Of a stretch of 36,849 bases of DNA, positions 5,324-13,092 are shown in pieces (the first letter of the stretch is position 1; every line of letters begins with the position of its first letter). The position numbers and the translations under genes were made by a program. The DNA is taken from contig JAFXXN010000104.1 in NCBI GenBank assembly GCA_017542245.1, forward strand, positions 1 to 36,849. Reading direction: 5' to 3'. The notes under the pieces are model-generated. The model worked only from the letters and a program-made list of their open reading frames with translations. It had not been told where the DNA came from and made no database searches. The stretch comes from Lachnospiraceae bacterium. Its GTDB lineage: Bacteria; Bacillota; Clostridia; Lachnospirales; Lachnospiraceae.

Positions 5324-6784
5324 TTAAATTTTGTAAATTTTTACCACTTCAGCCTCAAGGCCGTCCTTTGCGCATACTTTTGTGTGAAGTACTTTTGCAT
5401 CGATTATGTCTTTGATCGCATCCGGTATATCTACTCCGGAAAGCTTATTCAGTTCTTCAAAAAGTTCAAAATCATCTTTTTTATCATAAGCTTCATCTAT
5501 GGAATTCAAAACCGCCCGGGTAAATTTATAGGGGCTTGCCGTTGAAGCGATCACCGTGCAGGTATCATCCTTTGTTTCCTCTCTGTACTTATTATATACA
5601 GCAGCTGCAACAGCCGTATGAGTATCAATTATATAGTTTTCTTTCCTATATAAATCAGCTATTGCTTTTGACATCTCGTCGTCCTCTGCATATCCGCCCT
5701 TAAAAAGATCAAGTTTATCCTTCATTTCAGAGGTTATCTCATATTTTCCTTTATTCTTCAGATCGCTCATAAGTGAAGCTGTTTCATCTCCGGCTATCTC
5801 GTATATAAGCCTTTCAAGATTACTTGAAATAAGTATATCCATACTTGGAGATGAAGTAAGATAAAATTCACGGTTTTTGTCGTATACGCCTGTTTCAAAG
5901 AAATCCGTAAGGACTTTATTCCTGTTTGACGCACATATGAGTTTGTTAACCGGAACTCCCATTTTGAATGCATAATAAGCAGCAAGAATATTTCCGAAAT
6001 TTCCCGTTGGAACAACAAAGTTGATCTGTTTGGGCATTAATCTCGAGTATGCATATACATAATATGCAACCTGAGGAATAAGTCTTCCGATATTTATGGA
6101 ATTTGCTGAAGAAAAACGGTATCCGCCCGCCTTCATTCTTTTAGCAAGATTTTCATCGGTAAACATTGCCTTTACGGCACTTTGGGCATCATCAAAGTTT
6201 CCTTCTATTCCTATAACATTAACATTTTTTCCGCGCTGAGTTACCATCTGTTTTTCCTGAACACGGCTTACTCCGTGCTTAGGATAAAATACTACTATGC
6301 TGGTTCCCGGCACATCGGCAAATCCGGCAAGAGCTGCTTTTCCCGTATCTCCGGATGTCGCAGTAAGTATTACTATCTCCTCCGAAGCCCCGCATTTACG
6401 TGCCGCAGTTGTCATAAGATAAGGAAGTATAGATAACGCCATATCTTTAAATGCAATCGTTCTTCCGTGGAAAAGTTCCAGAAAATATGCTCCATCTGCT
6501 TCAACAAGCTTTGTTATATCATCTGTATCGAACTTTTCGGAATTATATGCTCCCTTTATGCAGTTCATAAGTTCTTCTTCCGTAAAGTCCGTAAAAAACA
6601 GCTTCATAACCTCATAAGCTACATGGGCATAATCCATCTTTGCCAGTGCCTCAAAGCCGGTCTTTAACTTCGGTATCTGTTCGGGAACATAAAGCCCGCC
6701 GTCAGGAGCAATTCCTTTAAGTATGGCTTCGGATGCGGTAGCTTTAATATTTTTGTCTCTGGTGCTGTGATACATTATCTTCAT
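5324..6784 (-). CDS. thrC: Threonine synthase
   Basis: PLP-dependent enzyme converting O-phosphohomoserine to threonine, the last step of threonine synthesis. The protein (486 residues) begins with the family's MYHSTRD segment. It has the lysine that binds PLP in HGRTIAFKDMAL (K113) and the phosphate-binding TATSGDTGKAALAGF loop. Its length fits the long, fungal-like/ThrC-2 subclass. The first ATG (6784) is chosen because AGGAGA sits 5-6 nt upstream. A sigma-A promoter lies at 6833-6861, and the leader can pair AGGCT with AGCCT just before the ribosome binding site. It appears to be a single-gene unit; no clear intrinsic terminator was seen after the stop. Confidence 0.96.
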   Translation of the reverse strand: MKIMYHSTRDKNIKATASEAILKGIAPDGGLYVPEQIPKLKTGFEALAKMDYAHVAYEVMKLFFTDFTEEELMNCIKGAYNSEKFDTDDITKLVEADGAYFLELFHGRTIAFKDMALSILPYLMTTAARKCGASEEIVILTATSGDTGKAALAGFADVPGTSIVVFYPKHGVSRVQEKQMVTQRGKNVNVIGIEGNFDDAQSAVKAMFTDENLAKRMKAGGYRFSSANSINIGRLIPQVAYYVYAYSRLMPKQINFVVPTGNFGNILAAYYAFKMGVPVNKLICASNRNKVLTDFFETGVYDKNREFYLTSSPSMDILISSNLERLIYEIAGDETASLMSDLKNKGKYEITSEMKDKLDLFKGGYAEDDEMSKAIADLYRKENYIIDTHTAVAAAVYNKYREETKDDTCTVIASTASPYKFTRAVLNSIDEAYDKKDDFELFEELNKLSGVDIPDAIKDIIDAKVLHTKVCAKDGLEAEVVKIYKI

Positions 6785-7913: not shown

Positions 7914-8951
7914 TTACATTTTAACCAAATATTTCTTAAAACTTTTTGAGAATTTTATCTTTTCATATATATCAATATACTCTCTTTGGGTGATATTTTC
8001 TATATAATTTCTATGCCATTTTCGATATCTTTTCAGGTGTTTTTTCGTCTCTTTCTTATGGTCGTGCGAAACAGAAAGCCTTATATTCTCGGCATCTTGG
8101 CAATGCTCATTTTTTCTACTCATGTCGTCTGACTTGGTTTGGGACACTTCTTCATGAAACATACAATTAGTATCCTCAGACTTTTCATTCCCCAATATCT
8201 TGTTTTCTATGTCTGTAGAATTTATATTAAGAATATCCACTCTTTTTCTTCTCCTTACACCCTCTTCCAGACAGTCTGCCGCTTTATTATATGCCACAGC
8301 CGCTTCTACTTCACTAGAATAACTTCCAACCGATACAGTTCCGGCCACATGTATCTTGACCTCATATTTTTTCCTGCCATGTATATCTTTTTCATATACA
8401 CCGTAATATTTATTTATCACTAAAAGATTTCCGAATCTGAAATCTTTATTGTCTCCGTTCTTAAAAATATAATCCCTGCCTTCTACAGAAAAGCTTCTGA
8501 CACCGTATCGGGCAAGCAGGCTGCACTGCATACCGAAATCCGTATAAAAAAGATGTCCCCCTCGTTTCTGGATTTTATGATTTCTAAAAAAAAACAGTTC
8601 GTCGGCATCAAACTTTAATTCAATGTTCCTGTCAAGATAGTAGACAAAATACTTTCCAAACAGATATATGGGGTTTTTGCAATACATTCCTGTTTTTCGC
8701 AAAGTCAGTAACATTATCCATTTGTCAAATCCAAGGGGTTCTTTTTCTGTCAGTGTACACTTTTCGTAGTCTTCAGGGCAGTATTCCACAGCTCCGCGAA
8801 GAATCCTGTCAGCCAGAGCATAAGCAGCCCCGGCAGATTCTTTTGTTTTGAAACTGCCGAGGCTGATATGTTTTTCTTTATAAGTGACAGATGCCCGGAA
8901 ATAATCGGATCCGTCTTTCTTTTTTGCCAAAAAAACTCCGGTGGTATTCAT
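7914..8951 (-). CDS. AP2-HNH(degenerate)-AP2 domain protein
   Basis: 345-residue protein. Residues 4-58 match an AP2/ERF DNA-binding domain: GVF, YFRASV, then HISLGSFKTKESAGAAYALAD. Residues 183-235 match a second copy: YYGVYEKD, KYEVKI, VGSYSSEVEAAVAYNKAAD. Between them, about 120-182, a segment ending YIFKNGDNKDFRFGNLLVI lines up with the C-terminal half of HNH homing endonucleases (HHxNGD..DNR..NL). However, the catalytic histidine pair is replaced by I/F, so it is probably inactive. A basic, lysine-rich C-terminus (about 295-345) follows. The ATG at 8951 is chosen over the TTG at 8963 because GAGG lies 6 nt before it. The gene starts 41 nt after the end of rnpB with no terminator between. 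A DNA-binding or RNA-binding regulator derived from a homing endonuclease is inferred; the target is unknown. Confidence 0.7.
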   Translation of the reverse strand: MNTTGVFLAKKKDGSDYFRASVTYKEKHISLGSFKTKESAGAAYALADRILRGAVEYCPEDYEKCTLTEKEPLGFDKWIMLLTLRKTGMYCKNPIYLFGKYFVYYLDRNIELKFDADELFFFRNHKIQKRGGHLFYTDFGMQCSLLARYGVRSFSVEGRDYIFKNGDNKDFRFGNLLVINKYYGVYEKDIHGRKKYEVKIHVAGTVSVGSYSSEVEAAVAYNKAADCLEEGVRRRKRVDILNINSTDIENKILGNEKSEDTNCMFHEEVSQTKSDDMSRKNEHCQDAENIRLSVSHDHKKETKKHLKRYRKWHRNYIENITQREYIDIYEKIKFSKSFKKYLVKM

Positions 8952-8991
8952 CTTTAACCTCAAGATAAGGACTACATATATGCTAAACTTT

Positions 8992-9350
8992 GAGCAGCAC
9001 TGTAAGCCGGGTTATGTAATAGATGGTCATCTATCTTGACTGTCCGTCGCCGGACAGCTCCTCCGGTCCGTTTCCGGGCCGGAACGCAACCTACCCGAGA
9101 GCACGACGGGCCGCCGTATGGCTCTCTGTTTGGTCTTGCTTCGAGTGGGGTTTGCACAGCATTTCCCGTTACCGGAAAACCGGTGGTCTCTTACACCGCC
9201 ATTCCACCCTTACCGTCCGAAGACGGCGGTATCATTTCTGTTGCACTTTCCTGGGAGTCACCTCCACCGGACGTTATCCGGCACCCTGCCCTTTGAAGCC
9301 CGGACTTTCCTCTTTAAGGCTAAGCTTAAAGCGACCATCCGTGCTGCTCG
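8992..9350 (-). ncRNA. rnpB: RNase P RNA, bacterial type A
   Basis: The catalytic RNA of ribonuclease P, which matures tRNA 5' ends. Read on the minus strand, the terminal P1 helix is formed by GAGCAGCAC (9341-9349) and GTGCTGCTC (8992-9000). The conserved 5' core GAGGAAAGTCCGGGC lies near 9315-9301 on the plus scale. The ACAGAAA and GTAAGAGACCACC blocks follow, as does the conserved 3' block containing AACCCGGCTTA just before P1. Length (about 359 nt) and helix order fit type A, the usual form in Clostridia. The 5' end abuts the T-run after the upstream kinase gene, and no independent promoter could be confidently recognised. No intrinsic terminator is seen at the 3' end. Confidence 0.96.
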
Positions 9351-9375
9351 AAAAAATAAATCGGTTTTTAAACCG
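9351..9375 (-). terminator. Possible terminator of the TGS kinase gene, abutting rnpB
   Basis: CGGTT-TAAA-AACCG (9362-9375 on the plus scale) forms a short 5-bp stem that contains the kinase stop codon. It is followed in the minus direction by ATTTATTTTTT ending exactly where rnpB begins. The stem is short, so read-through into rnpB is possible. Confidence 0.5.
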
Positions 9376-11029
9376 GGAACACACTTCCGCCTACAAATTC
9401 CCTTACTATCGAATTGTGTGGTATTCCTTCGCTGGATATTCCGAGGAAATACTTTAAGAACTTCAGAAGCTTATTCGCTTCCTGATACTCCGGCTCATCC
9501 TCGCCTATTCCAAACAGAAGCGGCTCAGCATACTGTTTAAGGATTGAAAGTTCATATACAAGAGCCGAATTAAACATACAGTCAGCCTGTTCCTGGAACG
9601 GGAAAATATTTTCTTCCTCTCCTCGTCTTACCGAATACCACATAGCTATGGTACCCTTTGCAGATGTTCCTCTGGTTCTTGCATCCCTTACTATACGTCT
9701 TATAAGTCTCGTGGTTGTAGTCGGGATCCTGTTATGCTCATCAATATTGAGCTGTGTCAAAGCACTGATATAGATTTTAAACTTACTTTCCTTCGGAAGC
9801 GAATATGAAAGAGCATCATTAAGTCCGTGAATACCCTCTATAACAAGGATATCGCCTTTTTTCAGCTGCATGGTATTCCCTTTATACTCACGCTTTCCTA
9901 CTTTGAAGTTAAATGTCGGCATCTGAACTTCTTCACCGTTAAGAAGCTGCAGCATATCCCTGTTAAAACCTTCCACATCTATTGCTTCAAGACATTCAAA
10001 ATTATAATTTCCGTTCTCGTCCTTAGGAGTATCCTCACGGTTCTTAAAATAGTTATCAAGAGCCACGGGATGAGGATTAAATCCCAGAGTTCTGAGCTGA
10101 ACCGAAAGACGGTGCGAGAATGTAGTTTTTCCGGAAGACGAAGGACCGGCTATCATAACAAATTTAACTCCGCCGCGATCCTTTATCTGTTGTGCAATAT
10201 CGCCTATTCTCTTTTCCTGCAGTGCCTCCTGAACCAGCAGCATATCCTCAACGTTACCGTTGCATATCTGTTCATTCAGATCTCCGACACACTCAAGCCC
10301 CATTATCTTTCCCCATTCATTTGCTTCATGCTGTGTTTTAAAAAGCATGGGTCTGTCGATCATCTCACAGATTTCCCTGGGATTTGAAGGATCGGGAGTA
10401 AGGATTATAAATCCGTCAGAATATGGTCTGATGTCAAAATACTTTAACATACCGGTTGACGGAGGCATATATCCGTAAAAATAATCTACATATCCGTCAA
10501 GCTCGTAATAATTTGTTGTTGACGCACTTCTGTATTTAAATAACTTTACCTTGTCATACATTCCCAAATCCTTAAACATCTTGATCACTTTCGATGTTTT
10601 GTCGGAATGTTTTATAATAGGAAGATTCTCTGCAACGAGTGCTTTCATCTCTTCCTTTACCTTTTGCAAAAGCTTTGCATCAAGAGCGGTATCCCCTTCA
10701 TAATCACAGTAAACAGCTCTGCCTAAAGTATGTTCTACAGAGATTTTTTTGTTCTTTTCCTTTCCGAGCACATTCTCAAAAGCTTTCAGCATAAGGAATA
10801 TAATACCCCTGCAATAGGTTTCATTGCCTATTGTTTCACCCGTTGTTATAAAAGCTACTTCACAATCCTCTTCAATCTTTTTGTTCAGTTCCTTCAGCTT
10901 ACCATCGGCAAAGCACAGGATAATGTCTCCTTTTACCTTATCCCTGTAATCATCAGCAACCTCTGAAAAAGCTGCGCCTTTTTCATATTCTACAGTAACC
11001 CCGTTTACAGTAACTTTACAATTCCCCAT
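9368..11029 (-). CDS. TGS-domain uridine kinase-like nucleoside kinase
   Basis: 553-residue, three-part protein. The N-terminus (about 1-65, CKVTVNGVTVEY) is a TGS domain. The middle resembles the second additional domain of threonyl-tRNA synthetase (HTLGRAV near residue 95). The C-terminal half is a phosphoribulokinase/uridine-kinase P-loop domain, with Walker A GPSSSGKTT around residues 293-301, the DNYF segment, and EGIHGLND. Proteins of this build are annotated as nucleoside kinases in Clostridia; the phosphorylated substrate is not established. The ATG at 11029 is used because AAGGAGA lies 6-7 nt upstream; the longer frame runs through a dispersed repeat at 11053-11105. It follows trmK by 75 bp. 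The stop codon lies inside a small hairpin directly before rnpB. Confidence 0.9.
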   Translation of the reverse strand: MGNCKVTVNGVTVEYEKGAAFSEVADDYRDKVKGDIILCFADGKLKELNKKIEEDCEVAFITTGETIGNETYCRGIIFLMLKAFENVLGKEKNKKISVEHTLGRAVYCDYEGDTALDAKLLQKVKEEMKALVAENLPIIKHSDKTSKVIKMFKDLGMYDKVKLFKYRSASTTNYYELDGYVDYFYGYMPPSTGMLKYFDIRPYSDGFIILTPDPSNPREICEMIDRPMLFKTQHEANEWGKIMGLECVGDLNEQICNGNVEDMLLVQEALQEKRIGDIAQQIKDRGGVKFVMIAGPSSSGKTTFSHRLSVQLRTLGFNPHPVALDNYFKNREDTPKDENGNYNFECLEAIDVEGFNRDMLQLLNGEEVQMPTFNFKVGKREYKGNTMQLKKGDILVIEGIHGLNDALSYSLPKESKFKIYISALTQLNIDEHNRIPTTTTRLIRRIVRDARTRGTSAKGTIAMWYSVRRGEEENIFPFQEQADCMFNSALVYELSILKQYAEPLLFGIGEDEPEYQEANKLLKFLKYFLGISSEGIPHNSIVREFVGGSVFPV

Positions 11030-11052
11030 TAATCTTCTCCTTCTTATCAGTG

Positions 11053-11105
11053 TCAATATCACCTCGAAAACGTCTTCCTCGTTTCCTCGGTAATAAAACA
11101 ATGCT
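11053..11105 (-). repeat. Dispersed hairpin repeat, copy 1
   Basis: Shares with the copies at 22715-22783 and 25148-25195 the core ACCGAGGAAA....AAG.CGTTTTCGA (minus strand), and with copy 2 also the flanks GAGCAT and GGTGAYATTGA. The core can fold as GGAAACG/CGTTTTC around a short loop. It lies between trmK and the TGS kinase, ending 23 nt before the kinase start, in the same orientation to the downstream gene as the other copies. The second hairpin seen in the other copies is not preserved here. Confidence 0.75.
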
Positions 11106-11827
11106 CAGAAAAACCCCATCGCCTTTTTAGTCAGTACTAAATAATTTTCAAAGAATTCTTTTTTATCGGTACTTCCTTCAGAACCTTCATCCATAATCTT
11201 TTTTATTACCCTTTCGGTCTTTTTCATCATAACCTGAAGATACTGCCTGCAGATCGGATGGTGTTCTTTCAAAAGTTTTTCTCCAAATTCGTCATAAACC
11301 TCTATAAGCTGATTGTCTTCTCTTTTCTTATTTCCACAAGCCTGAACAGCTTTTATAGAATTATAAAACTTACCGGACTCAATACACATATCCTCATCAA
11401 CGATCACGAATCCGTTCTTGCGTAAAAAACATCTTACCATACCTATATCCGACTGCGGCTGAAGGATAAGTTCCTTTGCAGCCGCAGCCTTTTCAATCCC
11501 ATTTTCTAAGATCTGTACGGTAAGAGTCCCGCCCATCCCCGTAATAATGATCGAATCGGTTTCTCCTGCTTCCAATGAAGCGAGTCCGTCCGAAAGCCTG
11601 ATGCTTATTTTCTTTTCGTACCCATACAGTTTTATATTTGCATCTGCATGAGCAAGAGGTCCCTTTCGCACATCCATGGCAATCGCGCGCGGCGATATCC
11701 CCTCCTTGATCAGGTAAATACAGGTATGAGCGTGATCACATCCTATATCGGCAACAGTATTACCGGTTGTAACCATCCGTACCGACATCATAAGCCTGTT
11801 GCTGAGTTTTATATTGTCTCTTATCAT
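11105..11827 (-). CDS. trmK: tRNA (adenine(22)-N1)-methyltransferase
   Basis: COG2384/TrmK-family SAM-dependent enzyme that methylates A22 of tRNA. The 240-residue protein begins KLSNRLMMSVRMV and has the SAM-binding motif VADIGCDHAHTCIYL. It also has the family-specific ITGMGGTLTVQIL and LILQPQSD segments. Length and position directly after rpoD are typical of Firmicutes. Its ATG overlaps the rpoD stop by one base (TAATG, 11825-11829) and no Shine-Dalgarno sequence is visible, so translation is probably coupled to rpoD. Confidence 0.95.
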   Translation of the reverse strand: MIRDNIKLSNRLMMSVRMVTTGNTVADIGCDHAHTCIYLIKEGISPRAIAMDVRKGPLAHADANIKLYGYEKKISIRLSDGLASLEAGETDSIIITGMGGTLTVQILENGIEKAAAAKELILQPQSDIGMVRCFLRKNGFVIVDEDMCIESGKFYNSIKAVQACGNKKREDNQLIEVYDEFGEKLLKEHHPICRQYLQVMMKKTERVIKKIMDEGSEGSTDKKEFFENYLVLTKKAMGFF

Positions 11828-13092
11828 TACTGCTCTAAGAAGTCCCGTAACTTTCTGCTCCTGCTCGGATGTCTGAGTTTTCTTAAAGCCTTTGCCTCTA
11901 TCTGGCGGATACGCTCTCTGGTAACATCAAACTCTTTGCCGACTTCTTCGAGAGTCTTTGCTCTTCCGTCATCAAGTCCGAATCTGAGACGTAATACCTT
12001 CTGCTCTCTGTCGGTCAGAGTCCCAAGTACCTCAAGTAACTGTTCCTTAAGCAGAGTATAAGCCGCAGCATCGGCAGGCATCGGAACATTATCATCCTGG
12101 ATAAAGTCACCAAGGTGGCTGTCTTCCTCTTCGCCGATAGGTGTTTCCAGTGAAACAGGTTCCTGTGAAATCTTCTGTATTTCAGCAACTCTTTCCACCG
12201 GCATCTTCATCTCACGGGCAACCTCTTCCTGGGTTGGTTCACGCCCAAGTTCCTGAAGAAGCGTTCTCTGGGTACGCATAAGCCTGTTAATGGTCTCTAC
12301 CATATGAACAGGTATTCTGATAGTACGTGCCTGATCTGCTATAGCTCTGGTGATAGCCTGGCGGATCCACCATGTAGCATATGTGCTGAACTTGTATCCT
12401 TTGTTATAATCAAACTTTTCTACTGCCTTAATAAGACCGAGATTTCCTTCCTGAATAAGATCCAGAAATTGCATACCTCTTCCTACATATCTCTTTGCAA
12501 TAGAAACCACAAGTCTTAAATTAGCTTCAGCGAGGCGTTTTTTTGCTGCTTCGCCGGCATCAATTTTCTTTTTGCCGTCTTTCTTTAATGCCTCAAGCTT
12601 CTTAGTAAGCTCCTCCTTTACTTCCGGGTTTTCCGGTTTACGAAGTTTCTTTTCAAGCTCATGGCAGCGCTGTTTAATCTCAAATCCGTCTTCAATAACC
12701 TTTGCGAGATGGATTTCCTCATCAGCGCTTAACAGCTGGACTTTTCCTATTTCCTTTAGGTACATCCTGACAGGATCCTCGATACTGACACCTTCCGGAA
12801 CCGAAAGATCGATGTTTTCAATATCGATATCTTCCTCATCATCCGTGATCAGATCGATATTATCCAAGATGTCATCCTCATCAGAGACTGATTCCCTCAA
12901 CACATCGATACCGTTGTTATCAAGGAAATCATAGATATGGTTGATCTGATCCTCCGTCAGTTCCATATCACTGAAGAAATCATTAACCTCCTGATACTCG
13001 AGAACGTTCTTTTTCTTTTTTGCCATACTCAGAAGTTCCTTTAATTTTTCCTGGAACTTCTGTTGTACCTGCTGATCCATAATCTTTCGCAT
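11827..13092 (-). CDS. rpoD: RNA polymerase primary sigma factor (RpoD/SigA)
   Basis: Housekeeping sigma factor. The 421-residue protein has region 1.1 at the N-terminus, an acidic stretch around 75-95, and region 1.2 ([17 protein letters not shown]). Region 2 is near-invariant ([36 protein letters not shown] and [18 protein letters not shown]), and region 3 follows. Region 4.2 has the helix-turn-helix ([20 protein letters not shown]). The ATG at 13092 lies 2 nt after the dnaG stop; an in-frame ATG at 13080 (MDQQV) is an equally plausible start with a weak GAAAG ribosome binding site. It sits in the classical dgt-dnaG-rpoD arrangement and is probably translationally coupled to dnaG. Confidence 0.98.

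Follow-up and report, generated by a model that had tools for sequence, protein, structure and literature searches.

A Lachnospiraceae protein with two AP2 domains around an inactivated HNH domain, probably a domesticated homing endonuclease turned regulator

The gene on the minus strand at positions 7914 to 8951 (stop codon included) of the window, by which we mean the whole 36,849-nucleotide stretch of DNA analysed, encodes a protein of 345 residues that is best read as an HNH-AP2 homing endonuclease domesticated into a regulator, perhaps one of motility, that binds DNA bivalently, a reading to which we assign a probability of about 0.6. Its architecture, in which a degenerate HNH domain lies between two AP2 domains, is confirmed and stands well beyond chance. 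The open reading frame begins with ATG, an alternative TTG start giving 349 residues, and the AlphaFold model of the whole protein has a mean pLDDT of 83. The span from 7914 to 9350 comprises two minus-strand genes, this frame and rnpB, the gene for a class A RNase P RNA (8987 to 9350; 285.6 bits, E = 1.5e-92). The 35-nucleotide gap between the 3′ end of rnpB and the start codon (8952 to 8986, minus strand) carries a GAGG Shine-Dalgarno-like site. Since a search of this gap found no terminator-like site, and such a site is located just upstream of rnpB (9362 to 9375), the gene and rnpB may share one transcript in this genome. Also on the minus strand are two conserved neighbours, a cell wall hydrolase (Hydrolase_2, PF07486; 6990 to 7781), here called cwlJ for short, and threonine synthase, thrC (5324 to 6784), together with three genes shared with relatives, namely that of a uridine kinase family protein, here udk (9368 to 11101), trmK upstream of it (11105 to 11827) and, upstream of trmK, rpoD for a sigma-70 factor (11827 to 13092).

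The initial annotation had proposed AP2 domains at residues 4-58 and 183-235, and both profiles and modelling bear these out at about residues 5-52 (8796 to 8939) and 183-232 (8256 to 8405), each encoded on the minus strand. In the AlphaFold model both flanks of the middle domain adopt the AP2 fold, a three-stranded sheet packed on a helix, and a Foldseek search of the PDB with the whole model ranked WRI1 and the TEM1 AP2 domain first, at E values of 2.4e-3 and above. A Pfam search with the window's protein alone gave no AP2 match, yet an alignment of 29 family members that includes it (A1) brings the relationship out: Pfam AP2 (PF00847) matches 11 of the 29 members (best E = 1.9e-8), and the A1 profile recovers the plant double-AP2 factor WRI1 from the PDB at E = 3.6e-8. 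Residues 4-69 of the window's protein match PHROG_99, an HNH endonuclease family, at E = 3.1e-10. When aligned by hhalign with the AP2 domain of ten HNH-AP2 proteins, the N-terminal domain gave E = 4.6e-10 and the C-terminal domain E = 7.3e-9, while the two domains aligned with one another at E = 4.9e-12; the scores of 46 to 55 compare with best scores of 13 to 21 in 20 column shuffles each. By fold and by sequence profile alike, the two belong to the AP2/ERF domain family (PF00847). K11, R19, K27 and H28, on the strands of the N-terminal AP2 domain, are nearly invariant, and both domains are predicted to bind DNA specifically. In one family of the order a third AP2 domain lies on the C-terminal side, confirmed by Pfam in L119 (genome G037) and L120 (G121), and in nine of the ten genomes of that family that bear the gene another AP2-type match follows downstream.

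Beyond the second AP2 domain the protein continues into a disordered linker (residues 262-306; 8034 to 8168, minus strand; pLDDT under 50), which is long in nine of the 29 aligned members (L002 to L010), and closes with a conserved helical segment (residues 307-345; 7917 to 8033, minus strand), delimited by the AlphaFold model and A1, in which N315, Y325 and Y329 are invariant in all 29 rows. Just ahead of the linker, the window's sub-clade carries the motif T-x-V/I-E-N-x-I/M-L-G (residues 245-254; 8190 to 8219), retained also in L003, L004, L005, L007 and L008 and possibly a protein-binding motif.

The middle domain (residues 72-182; 8406 to 8738, minus strand) appears to be an HNH domain, an identity that rests on the modelled fold and is clearer there than by sequence. 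Modelled alone, residues 68-187 reached a pLDDT of 90, and Foldseek matched this model to 13 viral structures with E < 0.001, probability 1.00 and TMq of 0.47 to 0.57, of which six are named as HNH or homing endonucleases, one as an AP2/ERF protein and two as uncharacterised, four carrying no name; the TM-scores of these HNH fold matches are moderate, with rmsd values from 3 to 10. No HNH protein was found among the 50 matches listed when the whole model was compared with the PDB by Foldseek. The sequence resemblance to HNH is weak, with an hhalign score of 20.0 (probability 6%), where the highest of 20 column shuffles reached 17.2, and weak matches to HNH_3 (PF13392) in ten of the 29 members of A1 (best E = 0.013). 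The weak hhalign alignment runs in register with HNH proteins, including an intact relative from a genome of the same order (L117:3011-3691, genome G077), which carries the LHR, DH and NL residues as well as an AP2 domain and which matches HNH_3 above the curated cut-off.

The catalytic residues were followed in an alignment of 103 rows (112 before duplicates were removed), picked by two short motifs that lie outside the catalytic positions; it includes the window's protein, omits some loci and contains two partial rows. HNH enzymes, I-HmuI among them, require a D-H pair for cutting. At residues 162-163 (I-F in the window's protein; 8463 to 8468, minus strand), where intact HNH-AP2 proteins such as L117 have this pair, it is present in none of the 103 rows, and position 163 is never histidine and always phenylalanine. 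The histidine of the LHR motif, at residue 147 (alanine here; 8511 to 8513, minus strand), is likewise absent from every row, the adjoining R148 being retained in all 103. Only the asparagine, N175, remains of the HNH catalytic residues, again in all rows, and together with Q142, R148, D160 and F163 it is invariant both here and throughout A1. The claim that an HNH module had lost its histidines therefore holds, and a search for an intact HNH active site in the family found none in the 103 aligned rows. The inactivated domain is nevertheless the best conserved part of the protein, with a mean conservation of 0.70, where the AP2 domains average 0.67 and 0.60.

Of 61 relatives, 32 carry the gene. 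It occurs in 63 of the 196 genomes sampled from the order Lachnospirales, after setting aside G077, whose intact HNH-AP2 protein is not a family member, and in 102 of the 264 sampled from Lachnospiraceae, where nearly every genus is represented by a single genome, after setting aside G1077 for a weak match with five stops. A draw of 398 genomes from the whole phylum, with the order sparsely represented, gave five strong matches, all Lachnospiraceae, and three weak ones over AP2-sized stretches. As a rule there is one locus per genome, the exception being G962 with two overlapping matches on different contigs. In G234 (L126; two contigs, flhA present) the gene lies in two frames, either as a disrupted copy or through a sequencing error. 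Distances between the proteins encoded by the gene follow those of its neighbours, with correlations of 0.45 for thrC (59 loci), 0.52 for cwlJ (50), 0.83 for udk (14) and 0.68 for rpoD (12), none of which was reached in 2000 permutations; thrC and cwlJ correlate with each other at 0.46. In 25 pairs with finite dS, drawn from 32 close pairs, dN/dS was at most 0.25. Judged by these sequence comparisons, the gene is under purifying selection and is vertically inherited in Lachnospiraceae and related families.

A search of plasmids recovered no copy of the gene, and viral contigs yielded two relatives among 85 pattern matches, one of them with leuC and leuD as neighbours, as in chromosomes. Synteny, the vertical signal and the lack of a plasmid or convincing phage copy rule out a mobile element or recent insertion, and the family does not behave as a homing endonuclease gene; a single short viral-contig match (L130, 45 residues) is left without explanation. 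The two records labelled Bacteriophage sp. (MT836856.1 and MT837267.1; L127 and L128) look like chromosome of a Roseburia type, both having leucine-synthesis neighbours and one also thrC, and MT836856.1 shares 99.1% identity with locus L077 of R. inulinivorans DSM 16841 along 7,380 bases.

Gene order was compared across 80 loci, the top-ranked among at least 555 relatives; nine of the 80 repeat DNA already represented in the first set of 61 relatives. The gene usually sits between the row dnaG-rpoD-trmK-udk-rnpB and the pair formed by the cell wall hydrolase and thrC. Within 6 kb, thrC was found in 61 of the 80 loci, the hydrolase in 51 and one or both in 69, the commonest layout placing the gene divergent from the hydrolase (adjacent and divergent in 38 loci, adjacent and co-directional in six). 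By comparison rnpB falls inside that distance in 19 loci. A single-domain response regulator (receiver) paired with a weakly CheX-like gene was seen beyond thrC in ten of the 80 loci (L045, L051, L074, L076, L077, L078, L090, L097, L103 and L106), a faint hint.

The suggestion that the gene has become fixed beside rnpB is borne out in part, mostly within the window's genus. Among the 22 gene-bearing genomes of that genus, rnpB is directly upstream on the same strand in 15, convergent in two and on another contig in five, whereas the same arrangement occurs in just six of the 80 loci, five of which duplicate loci already counted for the window's genus. A protein that binds the RNase P RNA, or is regulated together with rnpB, would fit the gap of 21-35 nucleotides by which the gene trails rnpB in the window and in L003, L005, L008 and L009, and would fit the window's gap in having no terminator-like site. 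Against this, the order, strand and distance of rnpB vary: the gene precedes rnpB in L039, L044, L050, L068 and L096 and is convergent with it in L015, and in other loci rnpB follows the gene, is separated from it by several genes or tens of kilobases, or sits on another contig. This variation rules out a general link to RNase P, and since the hydrolase and thrC are the more constant neighbours, a functional tie is improbable; we consider an RNase P-bound regulator highly unlikely, and the adjacency most likely reflects local gene order. Comparison with other loci suggests that rnpB and the gene were turned around separately, each at its own position, within an otherwise co-directional row (8952-9350 in the window; L039, L044, L050); L040, with rnpB turned and the gene unturned, looks like an intermediate.

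Neither a target DNA nor a regulon of the AP2 protein emerged from a dyad scan of 69 upstream regions and a whole-genome scan. The upstream regions did contain a strong dyad, TTCTAC-N5-TAGTAYG, in ten loci of one group, scoring 17.7 against maxima of 6.8 to 7.3 in the eight of 20 shuffles listed. The whole-genome scan returned 17 sites in ten genomes, compared with two for the reversed pattern; nine were at the known locus, and two of the other eight just precede a Penicillinase_R (BlaI/MecI-type) repressor gene. The core TTCTAC-N5-TAGTA presumably resembles BlaI operators, and the dyad was rejected as the site of the AP2 protein, being better read as the operator of another regulator. In ten loci (L050, L053, L057, L059, L064, L085, L089, L092, L093 and L096) a conserved intergenic block between the gene and the hydrolase holds the dyad and direct repeats spaced by 11 bases, which in some of these loci read TTAACA-N5-TTAAGA-N5-TTAATT, a pattern that we take to resemble a Pho box; a histidine kinase or response regulator adjoins several of the loci.

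The most useful new lead comes from the company that the gene keeps with the flagellum. In the order sample of 196 genomes, FlhA was present in all 63 gene-bearing genomes compared with 74 of the 133 gene-less ones, and in Lachnospiraceae in 100 of 102 gene-bearing compared with 33 of 162 gene-less genomes, so that two gene-bearing and 129 gene-less genomes have no FlhA (the short FHIPEP match of G1099 being counted as none). Fisher p values of 1e-40 (family) and 5e-13 (order) ignore relatedness and are not evidence by themselves. A link to sporulation was not supported, SpoIVA occurring in 33 of the 63 gene-bearing and 114 of the 133 gene-less genomes of the order sample, with a sub-cut-off match in G207 scored as absent.

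These counts are controlled for phylogeny only in part. In an FlhA tree of 80 rows, comprising all 33 gene-less FlhA-bearing Lachnospiraceae genomes and chosen others, 25 of the 33 branch apart in a deep clade that also contains a genome from another family, and the remaining eight, of the native FlhA lineage, are scattered among gene-bearing rows. The association may owe much to a few old splits. It is close to an even chance that motility is not involved at all and that one or two losses of the gene merely coincided with lineages losing or replacing their flagella: the 25 genomes in one deep clade may represent a single split, and several other families of the order retain native-type flagella without the gene. 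The frameshifted copy in flhA-bearing G234 also speaks against a tie to motility. Such an account sits less easily with the fact that merely two of 102 gene-bearing genomes are without FlhA, and with the placement of those that have neither. A species tree from rpoD alone was unresolved, with long doubtful rows, and was replaced by one of four concatenated genes, which placed only three gene-less Lachnospiraceae genomes. On this tree G026, without gene and FlhA, nests among gene-bearing genomes, grouping with G029 (bootstrap 98) and G027 (100), and G030 and G035, which also have neither, form a second group (99); because of these placements there are at least two groups that are without both. 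A link between the gene and motility is in our view a serious but tentative proposition, somewhat short of even odds.

We propose the following course of events. The ancestor would have been a homing endonuclease of the HNH-AP2 type, whose nuclease active site was probably lost in the common ancestor of the family. The two AP2 sheets may now read two half-sites on DNA, and the inactivated HNH domain could fix their spacing or offer a new binding surface formed by Q142, R148, D160, F163 and N175. The origin in a domesticated homing endonuclease, as first suggested in the initial annotation, is well supported by the HNH-AP2 fold, the loss of catalytic residues, the nearly always single copy, vertical inheritance, purifying selection and the conserved region, and we think it very likely that the present protein binds DNA and does not cut it. 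Since the gene is found mostly in flagellated species, has retained two AP2 domains and descends vertically, the protein is probably a regulator, and would act on transcription. With less confidence, and because in the sampled genomes the gene occurs almost only where a flagellum is present, we infer that its regulon could concern motility by flagella or some associated trait.

Two further accounts leave the domestication untouched and differ in what the protein does. It might be an architectural or genome-maintenance protein, serving chromosome organisation, replication or repair by bridging DNA through its AP2 domains, instead of a transcription factor. Two AP2 domains held on a rigid dead nuclease suit such bridging, the gene is often near the dnaG-rpoD row and the operator search gave no regulatory target; most core maintenance genes, however, are not limited to a single order and patchy within it as this gene is, and the flagellum correlation would be left without explanation. 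We regard this account as unlikely. Alternatively, a dead endonuclease with its DNA-binding domains retained might occupy homing sites and so guard the chromosome against active phage HNH-AP2 endonucleases. Intact HNH-AP2 proteins do exist around it, as L117 and its relatives in the class and the 1298 phage records that match L117 attest, but the divergence of the family follows that of its neighbours with no arms-race change (dN/dS at most 0.25), and here too the flagellum correlation goes unexplained, which makes a shielding role very unlikely.

In its fullest form, this reading would make the family a distinct class of bacterial transcription factor, AP2 - pseudo-HNH - AP2, derived from an inactivated HNH-AP2 homing endonuclease, controlling flagellar motility in gut and rumen Lachnospiraceae and giving bacteria a counterpart to the endonuclease origin proposed for plant AP2/ERF factors; taken as a whole, we put this forward as a speculative proposal that is more doubtful than its parts. 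Were the flagellum link true, the protein would be an uncharacterised candidate regulator of motility in common gut and rumen bacteria. Plant AP2 domains are held to derive from a bacterial endonuclease domain (PMC4501334, citing Magnani 2004), and those of apicomplexans and their kin are probably of bacterial origin (PMC4501334). A living bacterial lineage with an inactivated HNH-AP2 endonuclease kept by selection makes the step from endonuclease to AP2 factor testable in the laboratory.

Among known systems, the HNH-AP2 homing endonucleases of the PHROG_99 type, such as L117, share with the window's family an HNH core followed by an AP2 domain and a common register, FD..(D/E)...H..x..G..., L-x-R and NG(D)..D.R..N(L/I). 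The family differs from them in having neither the D-H pair nor the LHR histidine, in an extra AP2 domain ahead of the HNH core, and in its vertical inheritance with no mobile copy established. Plant WRINKLED1 (PDB 7wq5), the top PDB match by profile and by Foldseek, likewise carries two AP2 domains in one protein. The AP2 repeats of plant double-AP2 factors are consecutive and joined by a short linker, whereas an inactivated HNH domain of about 110 residues intervenes here, which sets the family apart from plant AP2/ERF transcription factors with their two adjacent repeats; to our knowledge, regulatory function has been tested only in the plant double-AP2 proteins. The AP2 proteins of bacterial and phage anti-CRISPR loci, 159 and 196 residues long, have been proposed as Aca regulators rather than nucleases, and the text of that paper does not mention HNH (PMC10732046); unlike them, the window's family resides on the chromosome and includes a degenerate HNH domain. 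No account of an AP2 - degenerate HNH - AP2 family was found among the matches listed in a search of open-licence papers.

The closest precedent in kind, from an unrelated endonuclease fold, is WhiA (DUF199), a transcription factor whose degenerate LAGLIDADG domain is described as lacking metal-binding and catalytic residues (PMC3781837). In both cases a degenerate homing-endonuclease domain stands beside a DNA-binding domain in Gram-positive bacteria (PMC3781837). WhiA combines LAGLIDADG with a helix-turn-helix, whereas the window's family combines HNH with AP2 and so falls outside the WhiA family, with no common nuclease origin implied. The window's family would represent a second route, besides WhiA, by which a selfish endonuclease has become a host factor in Gram-positive bacteria.
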